Source: Tetradesmus obliquus
Lineage: Eukaryota > Chlorophyta > Chlorophyceae > Sphaeropleales > Scenedesmaceae
Direction: 5' to 3'
NCBI GenBank assembly: GCA_030272155.1
Contig: CP126202.1
Coordinates: 434,001-498,000 of the forward strand
Length of the DNA stretch: 64,000 nucleotides
The position numbers and the translations under genes are program-made. Below, piece after piece: positions 2,953 through 63,941 of the stretch. The notes beneath the pieces were generated by a model that saw nothing but the letters and a program-made list of their open reading frames with translations, was not told the DNA's origin and ran no database searches. Position 1 is the first letter of the stretch, and every line of letters starts with the position of its first letter.

Positions 2953-5900
2953 TTACCAAGCGGCGTACTCGTTTGCAATCTGCACCTCCAGCGCGCTCTG
3001 CTGCACAGACTGCGGCAGCACAGTGCCGTGTACCTGCACCACGCCTCCTGGAGTTATCCTGTACTCAAACGCCTGATTGGCACTCATGGGTGACTTGGCG
3101 ACCTGCCACAGCAGCAGCAGCAGCAGCAGCAAGTGCAACAGCATCAGCATCAGCTAAACTGATCCTGTACTCATAGGCCTGGTTGGCACTCAAGGGCGAC
3201 TTGGCGATTTGTTGCACAAGCAGCAGCAGCAGCGGCAGCAGCAGCAGCGGCAGCAGCAGCAGCGCAAGGCACAACTAGCATCATTGTGAAAGAAAGCCTG
3301 GCGTTGTGCCTGAGCACACACAGCATCATCAGTACTACTGTTGACAAGTGCACCCAAAGCTGCCGCTGCTGAGCCTGGCTGCGATGGAACGAGACAGCAC
3401 ATGGGTACTGGTGATGCAATCAGGAGCAACTCCTGGCTCTCACCCCAACACAGGCGGGAATCATCAGCGTCAGCTTGGATGCACTTGGTTGTACCAGTGC
3501 CCTGCAGGTAATGATCAATGGCATCCTCCGACAAAACCTCGCAGCACAGCACACCTTGATGAAGCGCCGCTCCTCTGCCCCCTCCTCTATTCGCCAGCAC
3601 CAGTCGCACATTCAGAGAGTCGCATCACCGCCAATAGCCATACACGCACTCAATGATTATGAGGGGGGTCAAGGTTAAACTTTCAATGGATACCCTCACA
3701 CCTTGATGAAGCGCCGCTCCTCTCCCCCTTCCACGATTCGCTCCAGCACCAGCCGCACATTCACCGCATGAGCCCACTTGGTGCCAAGTGCAGCAGACAG
3801 CTGCCCATCCTTGCTTGTCGCAGCGCTGCCGCCGGGTAGGCCCCGCTGCTGCTGCTGGAAGGCGTGTGTAGCTGGACCTGTCGGCCGAGCTGTGACCTGC
3901 ACCACACCAAGTGCAGGTGCAGTTTCAGCTATTAGAGGGGTGTTCAGGCATCACAACCACGTGCTGCAACGCAACCCCTCGTAGCTGGCGAGTGACCACC
4001 ATCACTGCTATACAGCAGCATACAGCAGGCAGCAAGTGCGTACGGCACCACCTGCAGCACAGCAACATCATGATGTTGCCACACTGGTCACTTACCTCCC
4101 TGCTATTGCAGCTCCTTGCTTCGCCCAGCTCGCACCTGGTTGGTGACCACCACTGGAATGCGGTGTTGCTCAGCCAGCACCTTGACCGCGGTGGCCTGGC
4201 ACAACCCAGTTGACACATCACACCCGCTACAGGATGACATCTCACCTTTCACACGCAACTTGTCACCACCAGTGCCACACTGCAGCCAGTGCACGACAGC
4301 ACCTATCAGCACATCAGTGCCTACACGCTGTTGCTGTTGCAGTCCTCGCACCTGGTTGGTGACCACCACAGGTATGCGGTGTTGCTCAGCCAGCACCTTC
4401 AGAGCTATGGCTTGCCGGCCCAGCTGCTCCCCGCGCGCAGCCAGCGCTGAGGCATCTCCCCCGCCCAGCTCAGTGCGCAGCAGCGCTGCTACACTATCCA
4501 GCAGTACCAGCTTGACGTCTCGTTGAGCCACCTGCAAGGGATTGAAACAGGCACAAAGCACAAGCTGCTGTTGGGAAAACACGTGGCCGGGTGCTGAGGC
4601 ATCTCCTCCGCCCAGCTCGGTGCGCAGCAGCGCTGCTACACTATCCAGCAGCACCAGCTTCACGTCTCGTTGAGCCACCTGTGCAAGCACAAAGCACAAG
4701 CTGCATTGGACACTTCAAGTCAGCTGCTGCCGCGTCGCCGCAGCCCAGCTTGGTGTGCAGCAGCGCTGCGACGCTGTCCAGCAGCACAAGCATCGCATCT
4801 CGTTGCGCTACCTGTGCACCAAAACAGAAGGACGCACAACAAAACAAGCAGGCAGCCTCAGATGAGCCTTCTTCTAAAACAGGACCAGTGACGCAATCAG
4901 CATTCGCAGGTTCTCAGATGCCCAAAATGCAATAGAAGCCAACATAAACACTGTGGCCCCCTGCACTTTTTGCTTGAGTGCCTCCAGCTGTGCCTGCAGC
5001 TGCTCCACCTATTCTGGCCTCAGGATAAGCATGCGCGTCAGCACAAGCCTCACATACTATAAGCCAAATTTAGTCAGCTCAAGCCACCAAACAACAGGCT
5101 TGCACCTGTCTCTTGAGTGCCTCCAGCTGCGCCTGCAGCTGCTCCACAGAGCCTGGATTAAGGATCAGCATGCCCGTGAGCACATGCTGCACATCATACA
5201 TCACACAACATCAATGCAGCTAAGCAGCCCAAACAACAGGAACCCACCTCTCTTTTGAGTGCCTCCGATTGCGCCTGCAGCTGCTCCACAATCTGTTTCA
5301 GTATCAGCATGCGCGTGAGCAAATGCTTCACACCACACAAGCCACAACATCCAAGCAGGCAAGCCACAGACAAGCTATCCCTCACCTCCCGCTTGAGTGC
5401 CTCCAGCTGTGCTTGCAGCTGCTCCACAGAATCTGGCTGCAGGGTCAGCTATACCAGCATGCGGTACCACCTGCTCCGCCAAATTGAGCCAAGCAGCCAG
5501 CAGTGCTCCTTACCTCTCGTTTCAGTGCCTCCAGTTGCGCCTGCAGCTGCTCCACAGAATCTGGCTTCAGTATCAGCATGCGTGTAAGCACCGGCTCAAT
5601 CAGCGACTCATAGACAGCTGTGTGGCAGCCGCTGAGCGCAGGCAGCAGCCCAGACTCAACAGCAGCAGTCACGCGCGCTGAGGCCATCTCCAGCAGGCGC
5701 TGCAGCAGCGGCGGCAGCAGCAGCAGCAGCGGCAGCAGCAGCAGCAGCAGGAGATTACGACCACCAGTTGCAGCACACGCAAAATGCCCCAGAGGCCGCT
5801 CGTCTGCGCAAGCACACACCATGCAATTCACCCCACCGCACAATCAGGGCAACGCAACTGCAGGCATCACCCAGCAGCGTAATGTGTATACACGGGCCCT

Positions 5901-6192
5901 TGCGCCTTGCTTCTGCACATATAATGTATCATGGTGTGGATGGCGAGCCAAAGTAACAAGCAGCGGCAAACGGTAGCGCAGCCGGCCTGTCACCTGTGTG
6001 CTGAACTTGCCTTCCCTGTCTCTGTACATTAGCATAGGGACTACTTGCCTTCTGTGTGTATGTACATCAGCATGTGTTTATGTAAGTTTGTATGTGTATA
6101 CGCACTCACCTGTGTGCTGAACTTGCCTTCCGTGTCTATGTACATCAGCATCGCCTCCAGCCCACCCAGGGCACGTGGCAGCGCCACCTGAC

Positions 6193-6231
<39 letters not shown>

Positions 6232-7737
6232 CCCAGGAGCTCACAAACCCAGCAGAACGGTCGCAAAGCGTGCACCGCTACGCTGACAACGCTGAGACGG
6301 TGGTTCATGCTGACAGCAATGGCAAGCATCAACTGCAGGCTACATAACACATGTGTTATGGTTGATGTGCAGGCACACCAGAACAAGCAACAAACACACA
6401 CATTCAGCGCCGCCGCCGCCGCCACCGCAGCAGCAGCAGCAGCACGACTATCAACAATCACCATGGGCATTACCTGCAGTGCAATGGTGTAGCAAGTCTG
6501 GCTCTTGCCCACTCCTGCAGGGCCCACCAGCTCGGTGATCACGCCAGCCGGCAGCCCACCACGCAGCGCAGCGTCCAAGCCCTGTAAGCAGCACCAACCA
6601 AGCACTTCTAAGTGATCAGAAGGCAAGGTGCATGGCCCACCAGCTCACTGATGGCGTCAGCCGGCAGCCCACCACGCAGCGCAGTGTCCCGGCCTGGCAG
6701 GGAAACACCAGACATGTGCCAGTGATGTGAGCTCAGACAGAGACAGAACGTAGCAAGCTCAGCTCGGTGATCACACTGCCTGGCAACGTGCCACGTAGGG
6801 CAGCATCCAGGCCCTGTAAGCATCAGCAGCCGTCAGTATAAGCACCCGCTGCGTCACCTGCACATACAGCTCTAGCAGCATCATGTACACATAGTCCCAC
6901 TGCTATCCTGCTGCCTACTATGGAGCACAACAGCACAGCTGTGCCACATGCAACGTCTTGCTGTGTGTGGCAGTGATCTACATGTGCACGTGTGGGTGCG
7001 TGCTGCTGCTGGTGCTGCTGCTGCTGCCTCACCTGGAGGCCTGTGAGCACCCTCACTGAATGCTGCCGCGAGGTCGTGTGCAGCCCCAGCGCCTGCAGCA
7101 CACAGCATGGCAACATAGAACATACAGTTGACTAGGGGTAGCACAAGGAGGAGGGAAAGGTGCCAAATGGTGGCCAGCTGTGCAGCTTCAGTGCCTGCAG
7201 CACACAGCATTCCAATAGAGGACAAACTGTAGTAAGACAGATGATCTTGGCAAGCAAGGCAAAGGAGGAGTGAAGGCGTTACATGATGACGAGCCAGCCG
7301 TGATGCTGACGTCAGCAGGTGCAGGCAAAGCAGGTGCAGAAGTGCAGTGAGCATGGTCGGCTGTCCTGCACAAACCTCTACAGTTACTTACACATGCGCA
7401 CAAATGCCGCAACCAACACACACACACACGCTTCAATACACACACAGGCGCATTGGTGCTTCAAAGCGTGCAACACAGCACCGAACCCAGTGCAGTGCAC
7501 CCAGCACCTCACCGTGGTGTAAGATGGCGCCAGGTGCATGGCTGCATGCGCCAGCAGCCACTCAGCGCGCGAGTAAGGCACGTCCAGCCGCTCCATGAGG
7601 TCAACTGCTGACAGCAGCAGCAGCTCCTGGCAGCTGTGCAGGTTGTGCTGCGCCAGCAGCTGCAGCGAGCCCGGGTCCAGGCCTGTGTCCCGCAGCAGCA
7701 GGCTGCTGCTGCTGCTGCTGCTGCTGTAGAAGTCCAT
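2953..7737 (-). CDS. RAD51B: DNA repair ATPase RAD51B (RAD51 paralog), complete
   Basis: Eight exons: 7737-7513, 7092-7033, 6581-6474, 6187-6110, 5699-5514, 4531-4352, 3896-3702, 3102-2953. Lengths sum to 1,182 nt, giving 393 aa plus TAA, close to plant RAD51B (~370 aa). Residues 1-75 are the helix-hairpin-helix N-terminal region after a serine run. Residues 81-116 carry GLDAALRGG and Walker A GPAGVGKS. MLMYIDTEGKFS follows, then Walker B-type LVLLDSVAALL, HRIPVVVTNQV and WAHAVNVRLVLE, all in plant RAD51B order, ending AKSPMSANQAFEYRI. RAD51B acts in the BCDX2 paralog complex that assists RAD51 filament formation in homologous recombination (family knowledge). The start has an Ser-rich stretch encoded by CAG/AGC repeats. 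Nearly every intron holds degenerate copies of adjacent exon edges. Divergent from the clathrin gene, 1.1 kb away. Confidence 0.93.
3160..3210 (-). repeat. Degenerate copy of RAD51B exon 8 start
   Basis: Repeats the acceptor and first codons of the last exon (AKSPLSANQAYEYRIS against AKSPMSANQAFEYRIT) about 100 bp upstream in transcription order, preceded by a CTG-rich tract. It is intronic if the 3102 acceptor is used. Confidence 0.75.
3548..3605 (-). repeat. Copy of RAD51B exon 7 donor end
   Basis: Repeats the coding end of exon 7 (EEGAEERRFIKV against EGGEERRFIKV) together with the GT donor, ~150 bp into the following intron. Confidence 0.75.
4130..4210 (-). repeat. Copy of RAD51B exon 6 donor end
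   Basis: Encodes KVLAEQHRIPVVVTNQV, the end of exon 6, and its GTGCG donor, ~215 bp downstream in the gene of the real donor at 4351. The rest of the exon is not copied. Confidence 0.85.
4575..4815 (-). repeat. Two acceptor-side copies of RAD51B exon 6
   Basis: Two copies of VAQRDVKLVLLDSVAALL, with boundaries near 4680 and 4812, lie upstream in transcription order of the real exon 6 start at 4531. Each keeps the acceptor AG. The first also covers the LLRTELGGGDAS segment. Confidence 0.85.
4960..5462 (-). repeat. Four-copy donor array of RAD51B exon 5
   Basis: Four copies of the coding end of exon 5 (EQLQAQLEALKRE and preceding MLILKP) with donor positions at about 5385, 5246, 5105 and 4966, below the real donor at 5513. 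Spacings are 128, 139, 141 and 139 bp. Copies diverge by scattered substitutions (for example SEALKREVG, LEALKREVR), and the intronic part between them is also related. Confidence 0.88.
5990..6080 (-). repeat. Two donor-side copies of RAD51B exon 4
   Basis: Copies of MLMYIDTEGKFSTQ and its donor at ~5991-6035 (MLMYRDREGKFSTQV) and ~6048-6078 (MLMYIHTEGK), downstream in the gene of exon 4 (donor boundary 6109). Confidence 0.8.
6630..6825 (-). repeat. Two acceptor-side copies of RAD51B exon 3
   Basis: Copies of LDAALRGGLPAGVITELVG at ~6640-6700 (DTALRGGLPADAISELVG) and ~6755-6822 (LDAALRGTLPGSVITELS-like), upstream in transcription order of exon 3. The second retains a clear acceptor. Confidence 0.82.
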
Positions 7738-8874: not shown

Positions 8875-11800
8875 ATGGCGGCAGCTGCGCCCCTCGTGGT
8901 GCAGGAGAAACTCCTGGTGCGCAGCTGTAGGACACCAAACTAGGTCGTTGTATGTTGCAGCAGGTCCTCGATCCTGTCACCAGCAGAGCACAGTAGCCCC
9001 TACGCCAGTGCAATTCAATATGGATCATATATGAAAAGTCGTGGGGCAGATGCCTAGGGCCCCTACGTAGCTGCAGTTTGCTGTAGGGCAGGGCCACAAC
9101 GTTTGGCCCGCCCAGCTGCTCGAGGCAGCACTTCCATAACTCAGCAGGCAGTAAGCAGCTACTCGCAAATGATCCAGTCTCTTCAAGCTCCCTGCTCTTG
9201 CCTGCTGCTCGCAGCTGCCCTCCATTGGAGTGGCACAGGAGTTCATCAGCTTCAAGAACTGCTCCATGGAGTCAGAGAAGTATGTGTGCATCCGCGAGAC
9301 AGGCGCGCAGAACCAGGTGGTCATCGTGGATATGGCAGCACCAATGAGTCCTGCAAGGCGCCAAATCACAGCAGACTCCGCGCTGATGTGCCTAGACAAG
9401 AAGGTCATCGCGCTGAAGGCCACCACAGCAGGCACGCCAGGCGATGCGCTGCAGGTCTTCAACTTGGACACCAAGACAAAGCTCAAGGCACACCAGATGC
9501 CAGAGCCTGTGGAGTTCTGGAAGTGGATCAGCGCCACGCAGCTGGGCCTGGTCACAGCCAGCTCAGTGTACCACTGGGACATCGAGGTGCGCTGCTGCTG
9601 TGCTGTGTACTGCTGGTACTGCTGCTGGTGGTGGTACTGCTGGTGGTGGTGCTCGTGGTGCTGCTGGCAGACCTTGATGGGGAGCTCTGGTACAAGCAGA
9701 ACAGCAGCCGGTTCCTGCGAATGGCAGTGGCACCCTTCAGGGGTCAACAGCAACGCATACAGTACCTGTCAGGTGGAAAGAGCAGCAGCACGTGCAGGAA
9801 GACATGTGCTGGGATATTGTCAGGCGCCTGTGACAGCAGCAGAGACACAGGGAGTATCAATAGCAATGCGCTCGTGCGTGTCTCATGCAGCAAACGGTGC
9901 TGCTGCAAACGCGCCAGCAGTTCATGACGCATTGTGCCAGCCTGGTCGGTGGCAGCATGGCAGCCAACAGACAGATAGGCAACACTGGTGAATGCACTAG
10001 TATACACCTCACAGAGTGCTGCAAACGTGCGGGTCAAAGCGTGTTTGACCGCATACTGAACTCAGCAGCTGCCTCACACCACTTAACTGGCGTGTGCTTG
10101 CTTGCAGGGCGCTGGCGACGCGCCGGTCAAGGTGTTCGACCGCACGCCAAACCTGGCTGGCGCGCAGATCATCAGCTACCGCACCAGCCCTGATGGCAAG
10201 TGGTGTGTGCTGATCGGCATCACGCAGGGCGCGCCCGAGAGGTAATTGCGCAGCTGCTGCACTTGCCTGCTGTCAGCCGTTGATCTGGTCTGTGCAGTGC
10301 GCTGCACGCGACTGCTTTGTTGCACCTAGGCTTGCTGCAGCATTCAGGGCCGCTGCATTTTGAGTCTCTGCTTTGTGGCACACATGTTGTTGCAGTGTTG
10401 GCTGGCACTGCTCCAGCCGATGCCCTGCTACTGTAGCATATGCCAGTGCATTTTGGGGTGCAGCAGTAGCATTGGACGCTGGCGCAGCTGGTGTGCAATC
10501 CTATGCTGCAGGTTGAAGCTGCCAGCTTCATGCGGGCTCATGTTGCTTGTTCAATGTCCTTGTCATTTTGGGTGCTGCTGCTTCGTTTTGTTGTTTTTCT
10601 GCAGGCCGCAGCTTGCGCGCGGCTTGATGCAGCTGTTCTCCATTGAGCAACAGAAGAGCCAGCCGCTGGAGGCGCATGCAGCAGCCTTCTCCACAGTCAA
10701 GGTGCGCAGTGCTTTGCTTTGATGGATGAGCAGCGACTGGGCAGCTGCGGCAGCAATGACACAGCAGCAGAATTTGCCGGCTGGTAGCCGGCATGCCAGC
10801 ATTTTCAACAGTCAAGGTGTGCAATGCACTGTGTATGTAATAGCAGCCAGCCGCGTTTGGCAGCTGCGCAGCTGGCAGCTGGGCGGCGGTCCTGCAGCAG
10901 CACACAGCAGTGGTCTTTACAGTCAACGTGCACAATGCTTCGCAACCAGAAGCAGCAGCTGCTACTACAACAAGCTGACACAGCTGGGGTAGCAGGCCTT
11001 TCAAAGCAGCAGCGGCAGCTGGCAGCATGCAGCAGTAGCGTGTTAGCAGGCATGCCAGCAGCCACAGCACGTAGTTGCACCACTCGTTTGTGGGCATGTC
11101 GGTTTGTGTACACAGCAATGGCAGTCATGGCAGCAGCTGCCGCGGCAGTGGAGCAACTTCCAGCAGAAGCAGCAGCGCGTGTGTGAGGGGCGGCGTCGGC
11201 TTCCGTTTGCAGGAACAGCAGCCACCAGCAGCAAATGCAGCAGTTACAAAGTGGCGACTAGCGTGCAACTGCTTACCTGCTTCATCTGTTTGTTTCCTTG
11301 TGTCTTCCGCTTGCCTGCAGTTTGCCGGCCGCGACGCGCCCAGCACTGTGATCAGCTTTGCGCAGAAGGCGCTGAAGGACGGCCAGGTGGTGTCCAAGCT
11401 GCACGTGATCGAGCTGGGCAGCGTGCCAGGTGCGTGGGGCAGCTGGTCGAGGGACAGTTTGGGACAGCTGTGCGTGTACAGCACAGGATAGCTGAACGTT
11501 GGACGGTGCGTGACAGTTGGTCAGCGTGCCAGGCGTGCGGAAGCAGCTGGCACGTGACAGGGCAGGGCAGCTGAGCGTGGAACAGCTAGCTCAGCACGCA
11601 GCGCACACTGTGGCGGGGCATTAGGTGCGGCTGGAAGCACACATAGCAGCGGCAGCTGACACACAGCAGTAAGCACGATGCAATGTGGCAAGCGGAGACG
11701 TGCACCATGCGCGTGCCAGGCCGTGCAATGCAGTGTGTTGCAGTGCATCAGTGGCTGTGTCAAGGAGCTGCAGGTGGCACTGCTGAGCATTGCTGCACAG

Positions 11801-13143
11801 CATGAAGGTGGAGACCATGCAGCTGGGTGCGGTAGAGCATCATTGCTGTACATTTACGCGCGCACACCTCATTATGTCCCCGACACTTTGCCAATTTCTT
11901 GCAACCTGTCGCTGCACATTTGATGCCGCAGGCGGCGCGGTCAAGCGCAACGCTGAGCTGTTCTTCCCAGCGGAGTTTGCGGACGACTTCCCAGTCAGCC
12001 TGCAGGTGAGCTCACATGCGCTTCGGCTGGTGTGCATGACCTTGCCCTATGCCTGCAAACACCCAGCAGGGCAGCTACTGTACAGACCAACCAGCAGGGC
12101 AGCTACTGTACAGACCAACCAGCAGGGCAGCTACTGCTGTTTGGAACTGTGTGTCCACGCGACTCTTCAGTAGCAACTCCAAGCATCACATCTGCTGAAC
12201 ATATCAATATTACGTCATCGGCCTGCAGATCTCGGAGGGCTTCTGCCTGGTGTACGCAGCCGTAGCGTGCTGCTACCTTTCCAACAGCTATCCACTAACC
12301 TCTACATAACTTTCATTGCTTGCTCCTCGCCCGCAGATCTCGGAGCGCTTTGGGCTGGTGTACGTGGTGACCAAGCTGGGCCTGCTGTTTGTGTACGACC
12401 TGGAGACAGCCACTGCGGTTTACCGCAACCGCATCAGCCCGGACCCCATCTTCCTGGCATGCGGCTCCGACTCTACTGGCGGCATCCTGGCCATCAACAG
12501 GTACGCCAGCAGGGCCACGTGTTACTTGTGTTATGATTTGTGTGTCAACGGTTTACCGCAACCGCATCAGCCCCGACCCCATCTTCCTGGCTTGTGGGTC
12601 GGACTCTACTGGTGATATCCTGGCCATCAACAGGTGTGAGGCTGGCTGTCTCTATGCTGCATCTGTGGCTGGATGTTGGTTTATAGCGCTAACACAGCAC
12701 GCGTCGGGGGTGCAGAATGCGGCTGCTTGTCTTTGCACCAACATTCCCTGCCGCTGCTGCTGCGGCTGCTGCTGGAGGCGCGGTCAGGTGCTGCTGGCCA
12801 CAGTCAATGAGCCTGCCATGGTGCCCTTTGTCAGCCAGCAGCTGAACAATCTGGCTCCATCTTTCTCTGCTGCTGCTGCTGTGCTGCTGCTGCTGCTGCT
12901 GCTGCTGTGCTGCTGCTGCTGCTGCTGCTGCTACTGCTGCAGGCGTGGTCAGGTGCTGCTGGCCACTGTCAATGAGCCTGCCATGGTGCCCTTTGTCAGC
13001 CAGCAGCTGAACAACCCGGCTCCATCTTTCTCTGCTGCTGCTGCTGCTGCTGCAGGCGTGGTCAGGTGCTCCTGGCCACAGTCAATGAGCCGGCCATGGT
13101 GCCCTTTGTCAGCCAGCAGCTGAACAACCTGGCACCAACTTTC

Positions 13144-13178
<35 letters not shown>

Positions 13179-13387
13179 AGGCGTGGTCAGGTGTTGCTGG
13201 CCACAGTCAATGAGCCGGCCATGGTGCCCTTTGTCAGCCAGCAGCTGTACAGTTTGGCACCAACTTTCTCTGCTGCTGCTGCTGCTGCTGCTGCTGCAGG
13301 CATGGTCAGGTGCTGCTGGCCACAGTCAATGAGCCTGCCATGGTGCCCTTTGTCAGCCAGCAGCTGAACAATTGGCACCAACTCTCT

Positions 13388-13419
<32 letters not shown>

Positions 13420-13525
13420 AGGCGCGGTCAGGTGTTGCTGGCCACAGTCAATGAACCGGCCATGGTGCCCTTTGTCAGCCAGCAGCTGAACAATCTGGCT
13501 CCATCTTTCTCTGCTGCTGCTGCTG

Positions 13526-13561
<36 letters not shown>

Positions 13562-13653
13562 AGGCGTGGTCAGGTGCTGCTGGTCACAGTCAATGAGCTG
13601 CCATGGTGCCCTTTGTCAGCCAGCAGCTGAACAATTGGCACCAACTCTCTTCT

Positions 13654-13688
<35 letters not shown>

Positions 13689-15737
13689 AGGCGCGGTCAG
13701 GTGTTGCTGGCCACAGTCAATGAGCCGGCCATGGTGCCCTTTGTCAGCCAGCAGCTGAACAATCTGGACCTGGCACTGTCGCTGGCCAAGCGCGGCAACC
13801 TGCCGGGTGCTGAGGGGCTGGTGCTGCAGCAGTTTGAGCGGCTGTTTGGCGCTGGGCAGTACAAGGAGGCAGCAGAGTGCGCAGCGGAGTCGCCACAGGT
13901 GTGTGAAGGGGTGTTGGGGTGTGTTGAGTGCGCCATGTTGAGCAGCAGGTAATGTTATTGGGCAGCAGCCTCGGGCTAGCGGCAGCAGTCATGTGATTGG
14001 GGCTGCGGTAGTGAACTGCAGCTGCAGTACTTGTGTGTAGTTTCAAGGTTGCCGGGTGCAGAGGGAATAGTGCTGCAGCAGTTTCAGCGGCTGTTTGGTG
14101 CTGGGCAGTACAAGGAGGCAGCAGAGTGCGCACCGGAGTCGCCACAGGTGCTCTGGGGGCACGAGTCTTGCACAGCGTGTGGTTGCAGCCTGAAGACAGC
14201 AGAAGCAGCAGCGGCTGTAGCAGCAGTTGTCATGTGTGCGCAAGCAGCTGCCACACAGGTTGGCCAGGCACATTGCTTGGCTTGCAATCTTGTCTGGAAG
14301 GACGCCTGCCGTGGCCCCTGGCCTCATCAACAAGCCCACCGTAAACAACTGACAATGTGCCTATGTCGTCTCCACATGCTTTACGTTGTGTCATCACTTT
14401 CAGGGCCTGCTGCGCACGCGTGAGGTGCTGGAGCGGCTCAAGGGCGTGCCGCCCAGCCCGGGCCAGAAGCCGGCCATGCTGGTGTACCTGGGCGTGCTGC
14501 TGCAGAAAGGCAAGCTCAACGCGCTGGAGAGCGCGGAGCTGGCACGGTGAGTTGCGGGACGGTTTGTAAATAGCAGTAGGGGCAGGTCCAGCAGCTCTTG
14601 CAGCAGCAACAGGAGCAGCAGGCTTGAATGCGCTGGGGTGCGAGAAACTGGCGTGGCAATTTGCTGGGAGGGGGCTTGAGGCGCACATTTGGGCAGCGGC
14701 AGCAGCAGCATGGCCATCAGCAGCAGTAGGGCGGCAAAGCCGAATGGGCTGAGGAGTGCAGAGCTGGCGCGGTGGACTGCAGGACAGGGTGGTTTGGGTG
14801 GCGGCAGCAGCGGGCAGCAGCAGCAGCAGCGGGGCTAAACACGCTGAAGAGCGCGGAGCTGGTGCATTGCGTGTGGTCGGCGGGTACAGCTGGGGTAGCA
14901 GTTGTGTTTTGCAGCAGCAGCATGGAGCATGGTGCAGCCGTGTTATCACACTGCGGCAAGCTGACTGCACTATTGTGCTGCTATTCCTGCAGGCTGGTGC
15001 TGGCTCAGAACAAGAAGGAGCTGCTGGTTAACTGGTGGAACAACTGTGGTGGCTGACCTTGCTCGCTGTCTGTTGTGCTTGTTATTTCCTGCAGGCTGGT
15101 GCTGGCTCAGAACAAGGAGCTGCTGGTCAACTGGTGGAACAACTGTGGTGGCTGATCTTGCTCGCTGTCTGTTGTGCTTGTAATTTCCTGCAGGCTGGTG
15201 CTGGCTCAGAACAAGAAGGAGCTGCTGGTCAACTGGTGGAACGACGGCAAGCTGGAGGCCAGTGAGGAGCTGGGAGACATGCTCAGCGCAGCGGGCGACA
15301 AGGACCTGGCACTGAAGATCTACCAGCTGTGCGGCGCCAGCGGCAAGGTGTGCTTCATGTCGCTGTTATGTCTGTGGTTGCTGTGTCAGTAATGGCTGCT
15401 GCTGCAATCGTCTGTAAGGCCAGCCGAGGGCAAGGACCTTGTGCTGGAGATGTACCAGCTGTGCGGCACCAGCGGCATGACGTGTTTGTTCATTTCGGCT
15501 GCGCCACCAGATCTGCTGCTGCTGCAGCTGTGTGTGCTGCGTGCTGGGTGCAGGCGAGGAGTGCTGTTGTTTTGTGTGCGTGCGCTGTGTTGAATTGACA
15601 GGTTGGCAGCATGGGATGTCATTTTCAGCACCACGGCGGCTTTAATATTGCTGCAGCGTACGCTCCAGCAGCTTTTCAACCCGCTGTGGCGGATGGAATG
15701 ACATCACATGCTGCGACACTCTATCTTCCTATCTTCC

Positions 15738-15772
<35 letters not shown>

Positions 15773-18700
15773 AGGTCAGCGTGGTACTTGTCGACAAGGT
15801 GGGCATGTCAGCACTGCAGGCCTACATCCGCTCATCACTGCTGGTTCTGCTGCTGCTGCTGCTGCTGCTGCTGCCGCAGGTCATTGTGGCGGTTGCCGAG
15901 AAGGGCCACATGTCAGCGCTGCAGGCCTACGTCTGATCGCTCCTGCTGCTTCTGCTGCTGCTGGTCCTGCTGCCGCCGCCGCAGGTCATTGCTGCGCTCG
16001 CCGAGAAGGGCGACATGTCAGCGCTGCAGGCCTACATCTGATCACTCCTGCTGCTTCTGCTGCTGATGGTCCTGCTGCCGCCGCCGCTCCCTTCTATCTA
16101 GGTCATCGTTGCGCTTGCCGAGAAGGGCGACATGTCAGCGCTGCAGGCGTGTTATCAACTGTTACTTCTGCCCCCGCCGCTGCTGCTGCTGCAGGTCATT
16201 GTTGCCCTCGCCGAGAAGGGCGACATGTCAGCGCTGCAGGCCTACATCTGATCACTCCTGCTGGTCCTGCTGCCGCCGCCGCTCCCTTCCTACATAGGTC
16301 ATCGTTGCGCTTGCCGAGAAGGGCGACATGTCAGCGCTGCAGGCGTGTTATCAACTGTTACTTCTGCCCCCGCCGCTGCTGCTGCTGCAGGTCATTGTTG
16401 CCCTCGCCGAGAAGGGCGACATGTCAGCGCTGCAGGCGTACACCGGGCAGAGCGGCGGCAGCCTCAACTACCTGCAGCTGCTGCAGCAGCTGATGATGAA
16501 CAACCCCAGCGGTGCTGTGAGCCTGGCCAAGATGGTGGCCAAGCAGAGCCCACCACCTGTGGATGTGAACACCATGGCAGACCTGTTCCTGCAGGTATGT
16601 TGGGATGCATGGGAGGGGCAGGGGGGAGGCAGCTGGAGGCGTTGCATTGAACAGATCGTGTGGAACTGAGTTGCTTGGCAGACCTGTTCTCGCAGGTGGG
16701 AGCTTGTAGCGATTTGCAAGGAATAGGAAGCAAAGCTTGCGGTGGCTGAGGGGAGTGAGGATGGTGGCAGCAGGGGGTGCAAGGAGCAGGTTGCGCAGCT
16801 AGCGGAGGGCTTGAGTGATCGTGGGGCACAGAAGCAGTGGGACAGGCTAGCTGCATTGCAGCAGCAACAGCAGCTGCAATGCCAATGGCGAAACTTCACT
16901 GTGCTTACTATGGTGTTGCTAGCTTACTTTGTAGCCTGATTGACTCAAGTGCAAATCCATTTGTTCTGTACCTGCAGCGCAACATGGTGCGTGAGGGCAC
17001 TGCCTTCCTGCTGGACGCGCTGGCTGGCGACAAGCCTGAGGAGGGGCCGCTGCAGACCAAGCTGCTGGAGATCAACCTGGTCACCAACCCACAGGTGCGT
17101 GTTATTTTGTTATGCACAGTTGTTACTTTGTTGGGGAGAGGTAGCTGCAGACTAAGCTGCTGGAGATCAACCTGGTCACCAACCCGCAAGTGCGCACTGT
17201 GTTGTTACACGGCTGGTGAAGCATGAGACTTGATGATGGACATCTTCAATTGCCTTTTTCGCAGCACAATTGTGACTTTGTTGAGAACGGGCCGCTGCAG
17301 GCAGATGCGCTTGTAGACAGCATCACAAACCATCTAATCTTACTTTCCTGTTTACCCCTGCAGGTTGCAGACGCCATTCTGGCCAACGGCACGCTGACTC
17401 ATTACGACAGGCCGCGCATCGCGCAGCTGTGTGAGAAGGCGGGGCTGTATATGCGCGCGCTGCAGCACTACACCGACCTCAAGGACCTCAAGCGCAGCAT
17501 TGTCAACACGCACGCCATCGACCCGCAGGTGGGATGATTTTGTATGGACTGATAGATATTGCGTGTTGTGGAGGTCTGCACCGTGTCGTGCTTTGACCTC
17601 AAGGTCCCTGCTCACATTGCACACACAGCACGCCTACTGTCATGCCCTGGCTGCCTGTACATGTAAGCTTACACTGCACTGTGTTGAGGCTGTGTACGGT
17701 AGAATGTTCTTAAACATGTGCTGCGCTGCTGCTGCCGCTGCTGCTGCTGCTGCTGCAGGCGCTGACGGAGTTCTTCGGCACGCTGAGTGCTGACTGGGCG
17801 CTGGAGTGCCTCAAGGAGCTGCTGCTGACCAACATGCAGGTGCGTTGTTTCTCACTGCTGCTGCTGGTGCTGCTGTCGGGTGCATGCTGCTTGGCGCGTA
17901 GCTGTAGCTGCTTTGGCTCTTGCTTGGCTGCTGGTCGTGTGAAGCGCAGCTGGTGCAGACATGCCGTGCCGCATGAGCAGCTGTGCTTTTGCTCGCCTGC
18001 AGCAGAAAAATGCTGGCTTTCGACCAAATTCAGTAGCGCTTACACTGAGACCAGTAAGTGTTGACCGGTCAAACAGGCCAACCTGCAGTTGGTGGTCAAC
18101 CCAGCCAGGACCTTCACAACTCATGCTGCTGAACTTGCCATGCATCTGTTTCCCGCAACTTTTGTATCTCAACACCCGCAGGCCAACCTGCAGCTGGTGG
18201 TCAACATTGCCAAGGAGTACACGGAGCAGCTGGGCAGCGGCAAGATCATCGAGCTGCTGGAGAGCTACAACAGCTACCCGGGGCTGTACCTGTACCTGGG
18301 GAGCCGCATCGCGTTCAGGTGAGGAGCGTGTTTGAATGTGGCTGTTCAAAGGCAAAATGTATCCTTCAGTTTTTGAAGTCCTGGAGAGCTACAACAGCTA
18401 CCCCGGGCTGTGCCTGTACCTGGGCTGGCGCATCGCTTTCAGGTGAGGAGCACCGAAGACTTGAAATCTTAAGGCACTACAAGCACTTTGAGGCAGCTGC
18501 GCGCAGCAGGCAGGTTTGTTGATAATTCAACAATAGTCTTTTGCTGAAATTGTACTTCCTACAGCCAGGACCTGAGGAGCACTACAGGTATATCGAGGCC
18601 GCTGCGCGCAACAGGCAGATCATGTCTTGATAGTGTTGTGCACGTTTTTAACTGTTTGCTGCATTTGTTCTGTCTGCGCTGTTGGCTCCCATTGTACCGC

Positions 18701-21700
18701 CTGCAGTGAGGACCCTGAGGAGCACTACAAGTACATTGAGGCTGCAGCACGCACCGGGCAGATCAAGGAGGTGGAGCGCGCCACGCGCGAGAGCGCCTTC
18801 TACCCCCCGGAGCGCGTGAAGGCCTTCCTCATGGAGGCAAAGCTGCCTGACGCGCGCCCGCTGATCAACGTGTGCGACAGGTGTGTGCTGCTATCCATCG
18901 CTGTTGTTTTTCAGCGTGGGTTTGGGGTTGCCAGTCTGGGTGCGCGAAGGCCGTCCAGATGGAGGCAAAGCTGCCTGACGGACGCCCGCTGATCAACGCG
19001 TGCGACACGTGCGTGCTGCTATCCATAGCTGTTGTTTTTTGACGTGGGTTTGGGGCTCAAGTCTGGGTGCAGGAAGGCGTTCCTCATGGAGGCAAAGCTG
19101 CCGGATGCACGCCCGCTGATCAACGTGTGCGACAGGTGTGTTTGGGGTTCAGAGTGTACGTAAATGCATACGCCCTGCTGGTCAATGTGTGGCAAGTGCG
19201 GCTGCAAACGATATGTACAGCCGTGGTGTCTTCAAGGTTTAGGCTTCAGGCTCTGGGTTTGGGATCAAGGAGGTGGAGCGTGAGAGCGCCTTCTACCCCT
19301 TGGAGCGCGTGAAGGCGTTCCTCATGGAGACAAAGCTGCCTGACGCACGCCCGCTGAAACGTGTGACAGGTGGGTTAGGAGGCTCGGGTTTGTGTGTTGT
19401 TTCAGACGAGCAGTCATCGCCGATCGGCACTCGTGACAGGTGCGGCTGCAAAACACATGTGCAGCCGTGGTGTGTTCGAGATGTAGGCTTCAGGTTTTGG
19501 GTTTGGGATCAAGGAGGTGGAGCGCCTTCTACCCCCGGAGCGCGTGAAGGCGTTCCTCATGGAGGCCAAGCTGTCTGACGTGCGCCCGCTGATCAACGTG
19601 TGCGACAGGTGTGTGCTGCTCTCCATAGCTGTTGTTTTGGGGCGTAGGGTTTGGGGTTCAAGTCTGGGTGCGTGAAGGCGTTCCGCGTGGAGGCGAAGCT
19701 GCCTGACGCGCGCCCGCTGATCAACGTGTGCGACAGGTGCGAGATACGCTCCATAGCCTGTTTTCAGGGGTGTAGGGCTTGGGGTTCAAGTCTGGGCGCG
19801 TGAGGGCCTCCTCCTTTGGAATAGTGTGCTGGTTGTGCGCCTAATGTGTTTTTGCATCACCTGCAGGCACGACCTGTTGGAGGACATGACCACCTACCTG
19901 TACAACGCCAGCCTGCTCTCGCACAGTTCACTGTTCCCTTAGGATCAAAGGTCTTTGCTGCTGCATCTGCAGGCACGACCTTGTGGAGGACCTGACCACC
20001 TTCCTGTACAACGCCAGCCTGCTCAAGTACATCGAGGGCTATGTGCAGAAGGTGTCGCCGCAGAAGACGCCAAAGGTGCGCTGAGGGTTTTGTTGTTACG
20101 CGGATGGACACCTATTGGTCACACACAATTCTGCCCAAGTACATTGAGGGCTGCGTGCAGAAGGTCTCGCCACAGGCGCGAGGCAGGTGGTTGTTAGCAT
20201 GGTCAGCGTGGACAGCGTCAAGACTCAACATGCTCTTGTTCAATCAGCTGTCATCAGCAATGCAATGCGCCATCAACAGGGCAATGGCTGTGCGGCATGT
20301 TCACACTTGCGCATGCACACACATGCGCACATGTGCACGCAGTGACATGTCTTTCCTGGGTTGCTTGCGTGCCGCCCTGCGCAGCTGGTCTGCGAAGCTC
20401 CTGATGACTTGGTGTAAACCTTGCTTTGCGCGTCCGCAACCCTACTCATCCTTTTGCGATGGCTTCCGGCTGCCCTGTTTTGCAGGTGGTAGGTGCGCTG
20501 CTGGACTGCGAGGCGCCTGGTCGGCCTTGTGAGCACCCATGTTCATGGGCACTCAAATGTTGTCATGTTCTCTGTCTGCTTGTTTGCTTCGGTTGCAGGT
20601 GGTGGGTGCGCTGCTGGGCTGCGAGGCCCCAGACGACTTTGTGAACAACCTGATCCTCAGCGTGCGCACTCCTACTAATGCTATTCATTCTTCTGGCTGC
20701 TGTTGTTTCTATTGTTCTGCAGGTGGTGGGTGCGCTGCTGGACTGCGAGGCCCCAGATGACTTTGTGAACAACCTCATCCTCAGCGTGCGCAGCCTGCTG
20801 CCCGTGGATGCTCTGGTGGAGGAGGTAGAGAAGCGCAACAGGTGCGGCGGAACGCTTGTTGAAACGTTTGGCGGAACGTTTGGCGGAACGATTTGTGTGA
20901 CGTGGCCTGGTTGGTGAGGTGGATGCTCTGGTGGAGGAGGTGGAGGAGCGCAACAGGTGCGGCGTAACGCTTGTCGAAACGTTGGGTGGAACGTTTGGTG
21001 GAACGCTTTGTGTGACGTGGCCTGGTTGGTGAGGTGGATGCTCTGGTGGAGGAGGTGGAGGAGCGCAACAGGTGCGGCGGAACGCTTGTTGAAACGTTGG
21101 GTGGAACGCTTGGTGGAACGCTTTGTGTGACGTGGCTTGGTTGGTGAGGTGGATGCTCTGGTGGAGGAGGTGAAGGAGCGCAACAGGTGCGGCGGAACGC
21201 TTGTCGAAACGTTGGGTGGAACGTTTGGTGGAACGCTTTGTGTGACGTGGCCTGGTTGGTGAGGTGGATGCTCTGGTGGAGGCGGTGGAGAAGCGCAACA
21301 GGTGCGGAGGGACGCTTGTTGGAACGTTTGGCAGAACTATAAGTGTGACGCTGCATTGTCGTTGTGAGGTGGACGGGCTGGTGAAGTAGGTAGCACAGCG
21401 CAACAGGCGCTGCACAAGGCAGGTTTCTGCGTAACAAAGTGCTATGTTTGTGTGCTGCAATGTGCTGAATCGTCTGCTGTGCTGTGTTTCAGCTGTGGTG
21501 TTCAATCATTCTCTGCCCTGCAGGCTGAAGCTGCTGACACCCATCCTGGAGCACTTGATTTGCGAGGGCATCCACATTGTCACATACATTGTGTTACTTT
21601 GCTTGTAGCACGTTACGAATCGTTGTTCACCCCGCAGGCTGAGCTGCTGACGCCTTTCCTGGAGCACCTCATTCGCGAGGGCAGCCGACCTGTTACATAC

Positions 21701-23659: not shown

Positions 23660-23691
<32 letters not shown>

Positions 23692-24155
23692 CGTGTCTAG
23701 GTGGTGAGCACGGCACTGCCTGAGAGCCGCAACCCGGAGCAGGTCAGCGTGACGGTCAAGGCCTTCATGCGGCATGAGCTGCAGGCGGAGCTCATCGAGC
23801 TGCTGGAGAAGATCGTGCTCAACAACTCCGCTTTCAGCAGCAACGCCAACCTGCAGAACCTGCTGATCCTCACGGTGAGAGACACGCAGTTCCCACCTGT
23901 TGGTCCTGTCCACAGCATGTGCACGCACCTGCACATTTAAACTGCGTGTTGAGTGCCGGCAGGCTCGTTCCGTCTCTTGCTGCCGTGTGCAAGGCTGAGA
24001 TAGGCGTTGCAGCAGCCTGCTCAAGCAGCTGCAACAACGTGCCTGATGACTGTTTGTCCACTCTTACATGCCAGGTGCTGGTGGTCCATGCTGCGATGCA
24101 CTTGCGCTGAGTTGAGTTGAGATGGTGCTTGTGTTATGTGCTGAGATACACCGCG

Positions 24156-24189
<34 letters not shown>

Positions 24190-36224: not shown

Positions 36225-36355
36225 GTAAGCTGGTCACTGCTGGCCAGCTGCCAGGTGTGCGACGTGTGGAGAGCCATCACCAGATGCTGCGCGCAGAGAG
36301 GCCTGAGCCCGCTAGCAGGGCGGCAGTGCCAGCACGCAAGGGCGTCCGCTAGCTT
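36225..36355 (+). repeat. Decayed duplicate of the GYF gene's 3' coding end
   Basis: Just past the stop codon lies a ~130-bp copy of the last codons (AAQLPGVWRVESLHQMLRAV) through PEPASRAA and the Gly-Arg-stop. Its own stop is near 36349. It sits in the 3' UTR or just beyond it. This is the same microduplication style seen at introns, here at a gene end. Confidence 0.85.
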
Positions 36356-42796: not shown

Positions 42797-45700
42797 GGCT
42801 CTGGCTGCTGCGGCTTGTGTGCTGGGCAGGTCACCGTGTAGGGCTCAGCCTGCAGCACAGCAGCAGCATCACACAGCACTCATTTAGACCGCTAGCAGTA
42901 CAAGGGAAGGCAAAAGGAAAGTAGGGCTCAGCCTGCAGCACAGCAGCCAACAACCGCAGCAGGGACAGGGAAGTTTGAAAGCAAGAAAACAACAAACAAC
43001 GGGACCATGGGGCCAGATGCAACTGCTACCAAAGTTGCGCAGAAGCACGAGACTGGGAACCTCTGCTGCCAATCTTCGTAGACCACATGCAAAGGAGCAC
43101 AACATACAACATGCACCAGCAGCGCCCAACTGGCACCTTGCCATGAGCAACAATTCAGCATCACTCGGGTGCGCGCAGACCGAACCTGATCCAAATGTGA
43201 CAAGCTACTCACGATGAGCGTGCAGCCCGCCAGCCGTGCGCAGGGCAGGTGGAAGTGGCAGCAGCAGGCGCGCTGCGCGCACTTGAGGCTGGCGCCCGCC
43301 TCGCCGCAGCGGCTGCAGCGCGTGGCGCGGCCGCGCTGGATGGCGCTTGGCAGGTGCATCTGCAGCGGCAGCAGCAGCAGCAGCGAGGTACAGCAGCAGT
43401 GAGGTGCAGCAGCCAAGTGGCATGCAGGCGTGGCGCGGCCGCGCTGGATGGCGCTGGGCAGGTGCATCTGCAGCAGCAGCAGCAGCAGCAGCAGTAGCAG
43501 CAGCAGCATTGTCAGGTTGGTGACAGTGCTCGACAAGTCCATCTGTATGGAGAAAATTTTGCATGGAAGGCATGGGAGCAGATATAAAGTGTGGCAGAGG
43601 CTGTGGTAAGAGGTGCAAGATAGCTGCATGCAGTGGTGGCTGTGCACAACATGAGCAGGCCATTGCCTGCAAGCTAGCACATGCTGCACTGCAGCACAGC
43701 AAGGGGATGTGTCAGCCTGTCTATATGTACTGCACTGCTGCTGTGTAACATCCTGGCTCCCGCCGTGCATTACGCATCCGGTGCTACATCCCGCTGATTA
43801 TTTTGAAACTTTAACTGCCAAATCTCTGGGTCCCGCCATGCATCATGCATCCTGTGCTACATCTACCCTCTGCTTGCTCATGTGTCCGTCATGAATTGGC
43901 ACACACAGCCACTCACCAGTTTGCTGCGCCTGTCTGGGTACACCTCAGGGCTCCACAGCGCAACATCCCACTGTCACACTTTCTCAGCCCCACTCTTTTG
44001 ACTGTGCACACTCACTCTTTCTCCCTCAAACATCCTCACACTTTCATTCATCCTCACACACATCCTCACTCACCAGCATGCTGCGCCTGTCTGGGTACAC
44101 CTCAGGGCTCCACAGCGCAACATCCCAACGTCACACTGTCTCAGCCTCACTCTTTTGACTGTGCACCCTCACTCTTTCTCTTTCACACGTCCTCGCACCA
44201 TCCTCACTCACCAGCATGCTGCGCCTGTCTGGGTACACCTCAGGGCTCCACAGCGCAACATCCCAACGTTACACTTTCTCAGCCTCACTCTTATGACTGT
44301 GCACGCTCACTCTTTCTTCCTCAAACATCCTCACACTTTTCTTCATCCTCACTCACCAGCATACTGTGCCTGTCTGGGTACACCTCAGGGCTCCACAGCG
44401 CAAGCTGTCACTGTCACACTTTCTCAGCCTTGCTGTTTTGACTGTTACCCTCACTCTTTCTCCCTCAAACATCCTCACACTTTCATTCATCCTCACTCAC
44501 CAGCATGCTGCGCCTGTCTGGGTACACCTCAGGGCTCCACAGCGCACACTGCCGGTGCACCCACACCACGCCCTCCTCCTGCTGCTGCTGCTGCTGGGAC
44601 TGCTGCTGCTGCTGGCCCATGCTGACAGGCATAAGTGGCCCCAGGCCCTGCCTGCTCATGCCTGTGGCTGGTGCAGCACTGGCCTGGTCAGCATGGCAGC
44701 CGGGTGCTTCTGTGCCGTTGCAGAGAGCGCAGCGGGCACCAGGTGGAGCAGGCTCGTGCACCTCCGCCTGCAGGCAATGCGAAACAAGCAGCAGGGCACA
44801 GGAGTGTTGAGATGTGGTTTGTGCAGCAGGAGTGCCAGCAGGTAGCGTGTCTGTTACTGGTGTGCATGAAGTGCACGTGGCCAACATCAGGCTCTTGCCG
44901 AAGCAGGCTGTGTTTACTACAGTAGACTTGTCACGCACTCACCAAACAAGGTTATGTAGTGCCAGCCCTGCTGCTCGCTAATCACATGTTGCATGGCTTG
45001 CACACAACCACAGGCAGCTGCACCACGCAACCTGATCATGCACATCAGACGCCAAATGCAACAGCAACTCACCTCTGCAATGGGTGCCAGTGCTGCAGGC
45101 ACGCGCGAGCGAGCCAGCTCCAACCGGCCAACCTCCTGAAGCTGCCCCACAAACACGCAGCCATCCAGCAGAATGCGGACCTCCACCACATCCCGCGTGC
45201 TGCTGCTGCTGTTGGTGATGGCGGTGACAACTCCTGCTGCAGCTTTGTCAGACAGCAGCACAGCGGCTGAGTCACCAGGGCCCACCCTTTCTACCTGCAT
45301 GTCTGCAGGCCCAGCGGCTGCTGCTGCTGCTGCTGCTGCTGGTTTGGTTTCACCAGGGCTCGCAGTGTTGCTGCCGCCCGCGCCAGCCGACTGCGCTGCA
45401 CTGTCGGCGCCGCAAGTACTACCGCCCTTCGACGCAAGTGCAGCAGCTGCTGTGTCGCACTCTGCATGGCTTGCTGTTGAACTTGGAGAGCCAGGCAGCG
45501 ATGCGGCACTCTCCTGCTTCACTGCTGCTGCTGCTGGTGGTGCATCATTGACAGGACTTGCAGCACCAGAACGCACAGCAGCAGTGCCGCCGGCAACAGC
45601 AGTGGCAGCAGCAGGCGTCTCTGACCCTGCACGTGATGCCAGAGGCTCCTGGTGGCTGTTGCCGCTGCCGCTAGCTGCCTGCTGCTGCTGCTGCTGTGCT

Positions 45701-62012: not shown

Positions 62013-63941
62013 CTACTCCTGCTGCACCAGCTGCTGCTGCTGCTGCTGCTCTGGAGGCACCTGTTGCTGCTGTGGCACAGCCTGCTGCTCTGTAAGGATC
62101 TGCTGCTCCGGTAGCACCCGCTTCACAAACTGCAGCAGCTGCTGCGTATACTCCTCCGGGTACTGCCGGAAGTGACTCACGTGCTCCGAGTCTCCCCACT
62201 TGTGCCGGAACGTCTCGCTGCCGGCCCGGCCGAGCTGCTCCATAAACGCCTCGACCGCTGCGGGCTGGATCAGAGCATCCGCATCGCTGTACAGAAATAG
62301 CTTGGGGCAGGGGGGCGCGTGCTGTAGCCATGACTGCTCCATGGCTCGAAGCTGCTTCTTGTAGGTCGGGATCTCCAGCACGCGCCCGATGACGGCGGTG
62401 GTGGGCTTGACGAGCCAGCCCGCGGACTCCTCGATGCCTTCGGCGGGGCGGGCCAGCGCGGCGGCCACTAGCGCGCGGGAGAACACGTCTGCAGGAAGAA
62501 GTTGCAGGATGAAAAGACAGGCACAGCAGATGCGGGATAGGTATGCTGTGCAGGAAGGATTCGTGAAAATGCTGCAGCATGGCAGGTGCTGACGTGTCGG
62601 AAGCTGTACGACGATGCAGCTCATGCTGCAGCACAGCAGAATCAATCACTGGTCATGTTTCCTAGCAAAGCCTCACCTGCTGTCACATTGGCCGGGCTGC
62701 TGTCCAAAATGATGCCTCGGATGCGGCTGCGCACATCTGCTGCCGCAGGGTTGGTGGGCGCCCACTCTGCCAGCAACTTGCACACGCAGCCCATGTAGAT
62801 GAAACCGCCACCAGAGAACAGGTGCACCTGAGGGCAGACCGTAGCGTGAAAAGGGGATTTTACTTACTGGTTGTGCCACATATAACATATAACAGTGTTA
62901 TACATGCAAGCAGCTTGCACACGCAGCCCATGTAGATGAAACCGCCACCAGAGAACAGGTGCACCTGAGGGCAGGCAGCAATAGAACGGGAAACATCAAC
63001 ATAGGTTTGGCATCATCAGGTAGTGTTATGTATGCAAGCAGTGTGAGACACCAGCCCATGTACATGAAACTGCCACCGAATAACAGATGCACCTGAGCGC
63101 AGGCAGCGCTACATATACGGAGGTCATCTGGCATCATGTCATCACTTTTTTCCCCACAAATGCAAGCAGTGTGAGGCACCAGCCCATGTAGATGAAGCCG
63201 CCACCAGAGAACAGGTCCCAACCTCATTCACCAGAATGGGGGCGTTGTGCCGCTGCTGGGCCATCTGGATGACCTTGCGCGTGAACTTCCTTGCAAACAC
63301 AAAGATCTTCCTTGCTGAAAAACATTAATTAGTACTCACCAGAATGGGGGCATTGGGCCGCTGCTGAACCATCTGAATCAGCTTGCACATGGGCTTCCTT
63401 GCAAATAAAAAGATCTTCCTTGCTCGAAAGCATCAACAGCTCAAAAACAACAACAATAACTCAACTCACCAGAATGGCTGCTGAGCCATCTGAATCAGCT
63501 TCCGAGTGAACTATCTGGCGCGGCGCATGCCAGCAGGCGGCACCAGCGCGCTGGCAGAAACATCAACATTCAAAAAACACTTGTGTAATATATGAAATTC
63601 CTGTAACTTGCCGAGCTAATGACAGGCTCATTAGTCAAAGCAAAATGCAAACCTCGCTGAGGGGAGTCACTCACCAGTATGGGGGCATCGGGCCGCTGCT
63701 GGGCCATGTGGATGAGCTTGCGCGTGAACTTCCTTGCAAACAAAAAAGATCTTTGATGCTCAAAAACAATAATCAACTCACCAGAATGGGGGCATTGGGC
63801 CGCTGCTGGGCCACCTGGATGAGCTTGCGTGTGAACTTCCGTGCGCGGCGCATGCCAGCAGCCGGCACCAGTGCGCTGCTCACACGCGAGCGCGCTGCCA
63901 GCACATGCCTGCAGCCCAGCGACTGCCACAGCTGCACATAC
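62013..63941 (-). CDS. TMEM53/DUF829-type alpha/beta hydrolase-fold protein (5' end beyond window)
   Basis: Three exons in phase: 63941-63782, 62827-62677 and 62488-62013 (stop). They encode YVQLWQSLGCRHVLAARS, the nucleophile-elbow-like VHLFSGGGFIYMG, GIILDSSPAN, then LFLYSDADALIQPAAVEAF and GDSEHVSHFRQYPEEY, followed by a Gln-rich tail. The order LFSGGGF, DSSP, SDAD and SEHVSHFRQYPEEY matches TMEM53/DUF829 proteins, where Ser, Asp and His would form the hydrolase triad. TMEM53 members are linked to the nuclear envelope in animals; the algal function and substrate are unknown. The N-terminal strand with the usual GWWG-type motif must lie past the right edge. The first visible intron is built of exon-edge copies. 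Confidence 0.82.
62900..63745 (-). repeat. Opposed exon-edge arrays filling one intron
   Basis: After the donor at 63781 come four copies of the exon end (RKFTRKLIQVAQQRPNAPIL plus GTGAGT), with boundaries near 63674, 63469, 63339 and 63231. Then come three copies of the next exon's start (VHLFSGGGFIYMG) with boundaries near 63215 (acceptor lost), 63092 and 62964. Donor-type and acceptor-type copies abut at ~63220. Essentially the whole 954-bp intron is accounted for. Confidence 0.93.

Follow-up and report, generated by a model that had tools for sequence, protein, structure and literature searches.

Tandem copies of adjoining exon edges lengthen the introns of the clathrin heavy chain gene of Tetradesmus obliquus

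We analyzed a 64,000-nucleotide stretch of the Tetradesmus obliquus genome (contig CP126202.1, positions 434,001 to 498,000; hereafter the window) by searching for repeats within it and by searches of the whole assembly (GCA_030272155.1; 104.66 Mb, 17 contigs). The window contains a clathrin heavy chain gene at 8875..31874 on the + strand (window coordinates), with 34 exons, 33 introns and an open frame of 1,701 codons. The gene model was obtained by spliced alignment and manual correction, and this is the sole window gene modelled in full. A first-pass annotation had proposed that introns in this window contain copies of the adjacent exon edges, each with a splice site; the clathrin introns do hold such copies, and the likeness of the copies stops at splice sites.

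Self-comparison of the window yielded 123 pairs of near direct repeats (less than 3 kb apart, BLAST E ≤ 1e-3, low complexity removed) against 3 pairs farther apart. Each clathrin exon edge was compared with the adjoining intron, and the 99.9% point of 1,984 scores of exon edges against other introns was used as the threshold. An adjacent exon-edge copy above this threshold was detected in 25 of the 33 introns (donor side 16/33, acceptor side 20/33), compared with none for the far halves of the same exons, which served as a wrong-end control (0/22 and 0/23, or 0/45 in all). The full tally, using a score of at least 20 and longer exon edges of up to 130 nt, comprised 77 copies, 33 donor and 44 acceptor, spread over 26 introns. 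Donor copies lie 5' of acceptor copies in all 12 two-sided introns, which is the order that had been claimed. Intron length is well described as 294 + 106 x copies (r 0.92), and repeat units cover 9,777 of the 17,894 intron bases (55%). The spacing of the copies has a median of 122 and quartiles of 109 and 130 (77 spacings); 36 of the 38 first spacings fall between 88 and 170, with a standard deviation of 17 among those 36. Intronic minisatellites, or variable-number tandem repeats (VNTRs), are head-to-tail arrays, and the clathrin gene likewise contains head-to-tail tandem arrays, detected with Tandem Repeats Finder at periods of 93-176 among others. In contrast to minisatellites and VNTRs, the long-period clathrin arrays are tied to exon edges, with the exonic half following the exon concerned. 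Repeats lying in the intron alone were found by eye at two sites, 12063-12136 and 22172-22365, both with a short basic period. The sole change seen, in one genome, is the lengthening of existing introns. The copies and arrays are located as follows.

12549..12635, + strand: donor-edge copy in intron 7; the real edge is at 12416-12500, and the intronic part resembles unrelated introns
12748..13690, + strand: array of 7 acceptor-edge copies in intron 7, preceding the real exon at 13691; similar units are read as coding in protein entry P0001 (see below)
14050..14150, + strand: donor-edge copy in intron 8, spacing 249; intronic part similar by local alignment, p 0.03
14970..15193, + strand: 2 acceptor-edge copies in intron 9
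15739..16390, + strand: array of 6 acceptor-edge copies in intron 10
18381..18451, + strand: donor-edge copy in intron 15
18942..19739, + strand: array of 5 donor-edge copies in intron 16, the last of them read as coding in protein entry P0003
20842..21413, + strand: array of 5 donor-edge copies in intron 18, unit 115
21519..21864, + strand: array of 3 acceptor-edge copies in intron 18
22776..23260, + strand: 4 donor-edge copies in intron 20, with a common exonic breakpoint at -77/-78 and intronic parts not recognisably related
25300..26049, + strand: 2 donor and 2 acceptor copies in intron 24
26734..27207, + strand: 4 donor-edge copies in intron 26
27412..27892, + strand: 4 acceptor-edge copies in intron 26
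28325..28582, + strand: 2 acceptor-edge copies in intron 27, one of them read as coding in P0003
29451..29494, + strand: single acceptor-edge copy in intron 29, 98% identical; spacer without a second genome match
30379..30427, + strand: single acceptor-edge copy in intron 31, 49/49 identical; spacer without a second genome match
31305..31385, + strand: single donor-edge copy in intron 33; spacer without a second genome match

The gene model was compared with three public protein entries. P0002 differs from the spliced clathrin model at 1 of 1,701 residues. This entry is known only from contigs of at most 5,775 bases and the gene spans 23 kb, so P0002 very probably derives from a transcript. 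Judged by this match, all the clathrin copies are very probably removed by splicing, in agreement with the first-pass annotation, which held that the mRNA stays unchanged. P0003 (OEZ86_004423 [Tetradesmus obliquus]) equals the model without substitutions, apart from two inserts, and these are two intronic exon-edge copies translated as protein (19670-19739 and the 28454-28582 region, in introns 16 and 27). P0001, another T. obliquus entry, has 3 substitutions relative to the clathrin gene and likewise two inserts, in which several intron 7 units (within 12748-13690) and an intron 30 copy are translated. Exon-edge copies are therefore read as coding in P0001 or P0003 at 12748-13690, 19670-19739, 28454-28582 and 29932-30042. 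The set of intron 7 units in P0001 differs from that in the window, and the source of this entry is gene prediction, not DNA. As two T. obliquus clathrin entries translate copies, gene prediction can fail at such arrays. Among near relatives, a sequenced clathrin entry is on record for Scenedesmus sp. NREL 46B-D3.

In a repeat unit, the exonic part measures 28-120 nt (median 59) and the intronic remainder has a median of 62; the two parts were compared in 72 of the 77 copies (those with a spacing of at least 200 or an intronic part below 20 were omitted). At the single-copy junctions of clathrin (21 pairs), the exonic part is on average 0.876 identical, whereas the intronic part is at the level of unrelated introns (mean calibrated z 0.39; 0/21 at p<0.05), and its position-by-position identity is close to the control. 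Intronic homology was detected in 4/16 outermost pairs and 14/35 inner pairs of arrays; local alignment gave 2/22 single copies, 3/16 outermost pairs and 20/38 inner pairs. The proposal that the units are tandem duplications spanning the junction is thus borne out within arrays but not at most single copies. The two single copies with a trace of intronic homology by local alignment, the donor copies of introns 8 and 12 (p 0.03 each), suggest that true tandem units occur at single-copy junctions too.

The asymmetry between the two parts also appears when two non-coding copies are compared with each other: over 37 pairs, identity is 0.873 in the exonic part and 0.712 in the intronic part, with 0.65 as the unrelated baseline. 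In 11 of 12 copy pairs with clearly homologous intronic parts, conservation is higher in the exonic part (p 0.006). The copies are thus more alike than their linked flanks, as expected under concerted evolution with a selected master. Where the intronic part falls below 0.65, copies match the exon at 0.913 (9 pairs) and one another at 0.803 (12 pairs); this lowest bin forms a star centred on the exon. Nine clathrin pairs have an exonic identity of at least 0.97. Intronic homology is present in 4 of them, all inner pairs, and absent from the other 5, all of which are single or outermost.

Three copies of terminal exons show where the likeness ends outside splice junctions. It stops at the stop codon or no more than about 10 nt from it at window position 36193, at the end of the open reading frame (ORF) at 40961, and at L021:5402 in a locus elsewhere in the genome, where the stop rests on a frame assigned in this analysis. 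The boundary therefore follows coding constraint and not splicing alone, and these coding-end copies confirm the earlier remark that the process extends beyond introns. Coding selection on the copies themselves was ruled out by the phase of the indels (6/48 are multiples of three) and by the rate of stop-creating changes (13/479, 2.7%, vs 3.2% expected); an excess of synonymous differences (43% vs 27%) fits drift of the exon itself. Mismatches are patchy, with 192 close pairs vs 156 +/- 7 in the 59 of 77 copies that could be tested. In the four-gamete test, 56 of 130 informative-site pairs from 9 arrays were incompatible, a result that repeat mutation could also give.

Outside clathrin, alignments of 14 hand-chosen pairs revealed a like anatomy in further parts of the window: the RAD51B region, the flank of ORF 34571-36193, a PHD-finger gene and the sequence upstream of a DUF829 ORF. 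Random genome loci showed it as well (12 hand-chosen pairs). Copies are accordingly visible at the RAD51B, GYF-assigned, PHD-finger and TMEM53-like loci for which they had been reported. A Pfam scan of two ORFs at the GYF-assigned locus near 34571-36193 gave no match. The copies in these other window genes are as follows.

3056..7230, - strand: region of a RAD51B-like gene, with copies of both donor and acceptor type, among them 3550-3763, 5990-6151, 6516-6689 and 7077-7230
34516..34806, + strand: acceptor-edge copy adjoining ORF 34571-36193 (the GYF gene of the first-pass annotation)
36231..36356, + strand: coding-end copy of ORF 34571-36193; likeness stops at the TAG stop
40825..40869, - strand: coding-end copy of ORF 40961-42196; likeness fades about 10 nt beyond the TGA stop
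43314..43506, - strand: acceptor-edge copy in the PHD-type zinc-finger gene
63228..63844, - strand: donor-edge copies upstream of the DUF829 (TMEM53-like) ORF 62013-62645, taken as one gene

Other repeats were also present in the window. Similar reading frames (...QRCANTCTETGGELHTQTQTQHARLL...) at 37169-37919 and 59896-60519, in opposite orientation and about 22 kb apart, represent a dispersed repeat, and an interior telomere-like TTTAGGG tract lies at 59818-59863. CAG/CTG triplet tracts are common throughout the genome: a 201-base query (2953-3153, with a CAG-rich end) had 62 genome matches, nearly all at that end.

EF2 and three HSP70 genes on other contigs were analyzed for the same copies, which were found in 7 of 38 introns with spacings of 98-136: EF2 had them in 2/14 introns, an HSP70 gene that we labelled BiP-like in this analysis in 5/9, and the two other HSP70 genes in 0/15. 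The count omits one exon shorter than 20 nt (L033), both terminal modelled exons of L035 and the final one of L036. In these genes, no copies were found in the wrong-end control (0/60) or in other-intron pairs (0/568). In intron 3 of the BiP-like gene, the intronic part of the inner pair is 98% alike and the outer pair is unrelated. Single copies in its introns 4, 5 and 6 are borderline for intronic homology (global p 0.026, 0.10 and 0.077; local p 0.21, 0.28 and 0.077, with 38 controls for the intron 6 spacer in both alignments), and the single copy in intron 9 is negative.

The density of near pairs was compared between clathrin and a 200-kb sample of the genome (20 stretches on 6 of the 17 contigs). 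The sample contained 54 near pairs, whereas 20 kb of clathrin alone held 53; a further 29 were counted in four 10-kb window blocks outside clathrin, and the last 4 kb of the window lies outside the count. The repeat density of the sampled DNA is thus one tenth of that of clathrin. Together with the EF2 and HSP70 counts, this indicates that the pattern occurs on several contigs but unevenly, with clathrin as a hotspot. A comparison of exon edges with flanking introns had been suggested beforehand as a check, and it places clathrin far above its controls; the very high rate of duplication that had been postulated holds for clathrin but not for two of the HSP70 genes. In the 200-kb sample, which was used without gene models, block ends showed no excess of splice consensus (20/54 vs 23/54 at the wrong end). 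With a coding filter, 13 of 29 sampled loci were coding-like, against an expectation of 6.4 and a maximum of 11 over 40 draws; splice signals at the block end of these coding-like loci were weakly favored in sense (6/13) vs antisense (2/13). Among 180 non-overlapping tandem arrays of the sample, exonic and non-exonic pooled, 165 have a period below 60. In one sampled locus, an array with a 117-nt period is present twice (L028:2316-2768 and 7857-8309), 5.5 kb apart and with equal score and unit, probably through a local segmental duplication.

We give an even chance to an explanation in which duplications span the junction and the selected exon then exchanges recurrently with the copies. Such tandem duplications would be short, mostly 88-170 nt, and would arise across exon edges, giving the units, order and spacing observed. 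The outermost splice site would stay in use, leaving the mRNA unchanged, which is very probable for clathrin from the public-protein match. An existing pair could re-duplicate through its shared exonic part, a likely route to arrays, and the intron would gain about one unit length per copy, consistent with the correlation above. Gene conversion, or cycles of slippage expansion and contraction, would repeatedly refresh the exonic part from the real exon, and selection on the exon would make it the permanent master of the exonic parts. The intronic part, having no master, would drift beyond recognition, as the exonic/intronic asymmetry suggests. Because it is the selected exon that refreshes the exonic parts, likeness would extend no further than coding constraint does, stopping at splice sites or close to stop codons. 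Splice-site interference below about 90 nt, together with the rarity of longer duplications, may account for the narrow spacing. The arrangement in intron 20, with a common breakpoint and spacers that are not recognisably related, and the patchy mismatches fit such refreshing by exchange. The general formulation, that the coding exon is a selected master re-writing its own non-coding copies while introns lengthen in ~120-nt steps, with exonic parts remaining near the exon in sequence and the rest drifting, so that exon constraint would both anchor and sustain intron growth, is put forward tentatively.

Several observations weigh against refreshing by exchange. Exchange between exon and copy was not directly seen, the data being one strain's DNA, and conversion would have to act on patches of 30-80 nt with an identity of about 88%, an unusually high demand. 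The star is confined to the lowest bin; in the bins of at least 0.65, copy-copy identity exceeds exon-copy identity (0.913/0.886, 0.883/0.831 and 0.932/0.905), although this reversed order is as expected for arrays with a shared recent history. A test for shared breakpoints, in which 14 of 21 pairs agreed within 5 nt (random 17%), is confounded, as 12 of the 21 pairs are outermost; the remaining 9 pairs include 5 that agree, 3 of them in CTG-masked arrays. The split of the pairs with at least 0.97 exonic identity into single or outermost and inner pairs is predicted equally by direct copying, and the lack of intronic homology in the single copies that look most recent (98-100%; introns 29 and 31 of clathrin) would be explained equally by that process.

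Direct templated copying is judged less likely and is the main alternative. During repair or replication, a polymerase would switch to a nearby exon edge, copy some 30-90 nt as far as the splice site and then return. The first copy would thus lack an intronic part from the outset, and exon-copy slippage would then build arrays. Such an origin accounts for the distribution of intronic homology (0/21 single copies and 4/16 outermost pairs vs 14/35 inner pairs) and for BiP-like intron 3, where the outer pair is unrelated and the inner pair 98% alike. It needs no exchange to produce fresh copies with unrelated spacers in clathrin introns 29 and 31, and the three spacers without a second genome match are also in keeping with it. 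However, templated copying offers no cause for breakpoints so near splice sites and stop codons, and it leaves unexplained why exonic parts outlast clearly homologous intronic parts (11/12). Some single copies, moreover, have intronic homology (donor copies of introns 8 and 12, p 0.03; BiP-like intron 4, global p 0.026).

The model of the first-pass annotation, random microduplication over exon edges that is hidden by splicing and followed by independent neutral drift of all parts, is considered rather improbable. The order of the copies (12/12) and the homologous tandem units inside arrays are those it predicts. Under drift, however, an intronic identity of about 0.8 (an estimate) would be expected at copies that are ~0.88-1.0 identical, and at single-copy junctions it is at the unrelated level; the exonic parts of two non-coding copies are also better kept than their intronic parts. 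This asymmetry refutes drift as the sole account, unless mutation rates of adjoining segments differ several-fold. Random tolerated microduplication further predicts many intron-only repeats of like size, and just two intron-only sites were seen by eye in clathrin. The model therefore fails as a full account, since at clathrin single-copy junctions the intronic part is lost where the exonic part is 88-100% identical.

That selection retains the copies, perhaps as decoy splice sites or as points of recursive splicing, is quite improbable. In its favor, mismatches are fewer within 9 nt of the junction (0.046) than deeper (0.106), a ratio of 0.44 (confidence interval 0.28-0.62) that may be overstated because a few copies with an unaligned junction end were excluded; simulated uniform change produced no such junction-near dip. 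Selection of this kind does not explain the stop-limited copies, which have no donor or acceptor at that end, and the copies show no coding selection. Acceptor copies of GT-starting exons are no better kept (16/162 mismatches vs 8/135), so recursive splicing is unsupported.

A supply of spacers and splice sites by introner-like mobile elements is very improbable: introners are known elsewhere for mass intron change in algae, but the window has only 3 far repeat pairs, and the spacers of introns 29, 31 and 33 gave self-matches only in a genome-wide search that skipped very common words, so a mobile origin of the three was rejected. An assembly artefact, in favor of which nothing was found, can practically be dismissed, as the copies differ by ~10% from the exon and P0001, another T. 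obliquus entry, reads similar intron 7 units and an intron 30 copy as coding.

The pattern was compared with known systems. In the potato RdRp case (PMC4974935), a tandem duplication over an intron-exon boundary led to the gain of a single new intron, with splice signals inherited from the duplicated junction. The clathrin duplications are alike in spanning the boundary, whereas the clathrin introns that grow already exist, many junctions of the one gene are involved, arrays are formed and the exonic half outlasts the intronic one. In Drosophila, duplications of proto-splice sites (PMC2891723) also leave duplicated exonic sequence intronic; they need AG/GY in the coding sequence and make a new intron position, in contrast to the present case, in which no new position was shown. 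Introners are described as driving genome-scale intron change mainly in fast-evolving lineages such as green algae and form families of similar introns (PMC9860276), unlike the three tested spacers here. Direct repeats of 4-30 bp at or near intron borders have been interpreted as insertion scars (PMC11782384), whereas the copies here are 28-120 nt of exon within the intron. Small tandem duplications arising by end joining, with overhangs of about 50 nt (PMC8355091), are a plausible source of short tandem duplications, although that system is mouse and human cells. Among the papers listed by the literature searches, several of which had thousands of matches, titles and abstract openings gave no account of introns composed of exon-edge copies, with most subscription journals outside the reach of the searches.

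In summary, the exon-edge units make up 55% of the intron DNA of one gene and thereby reveal a visible, stepwise source of intron length in a species whose mean intron length is tabulated as 462, vs 230-302 in four other algae (PMC5966456). In practice, gene models may take intronic copies for protein, as in P0001 and P0003. The arrays are also a natural setting in which to test whether exchange lets selection on an exon preserve the non-coding DNA linked to it.

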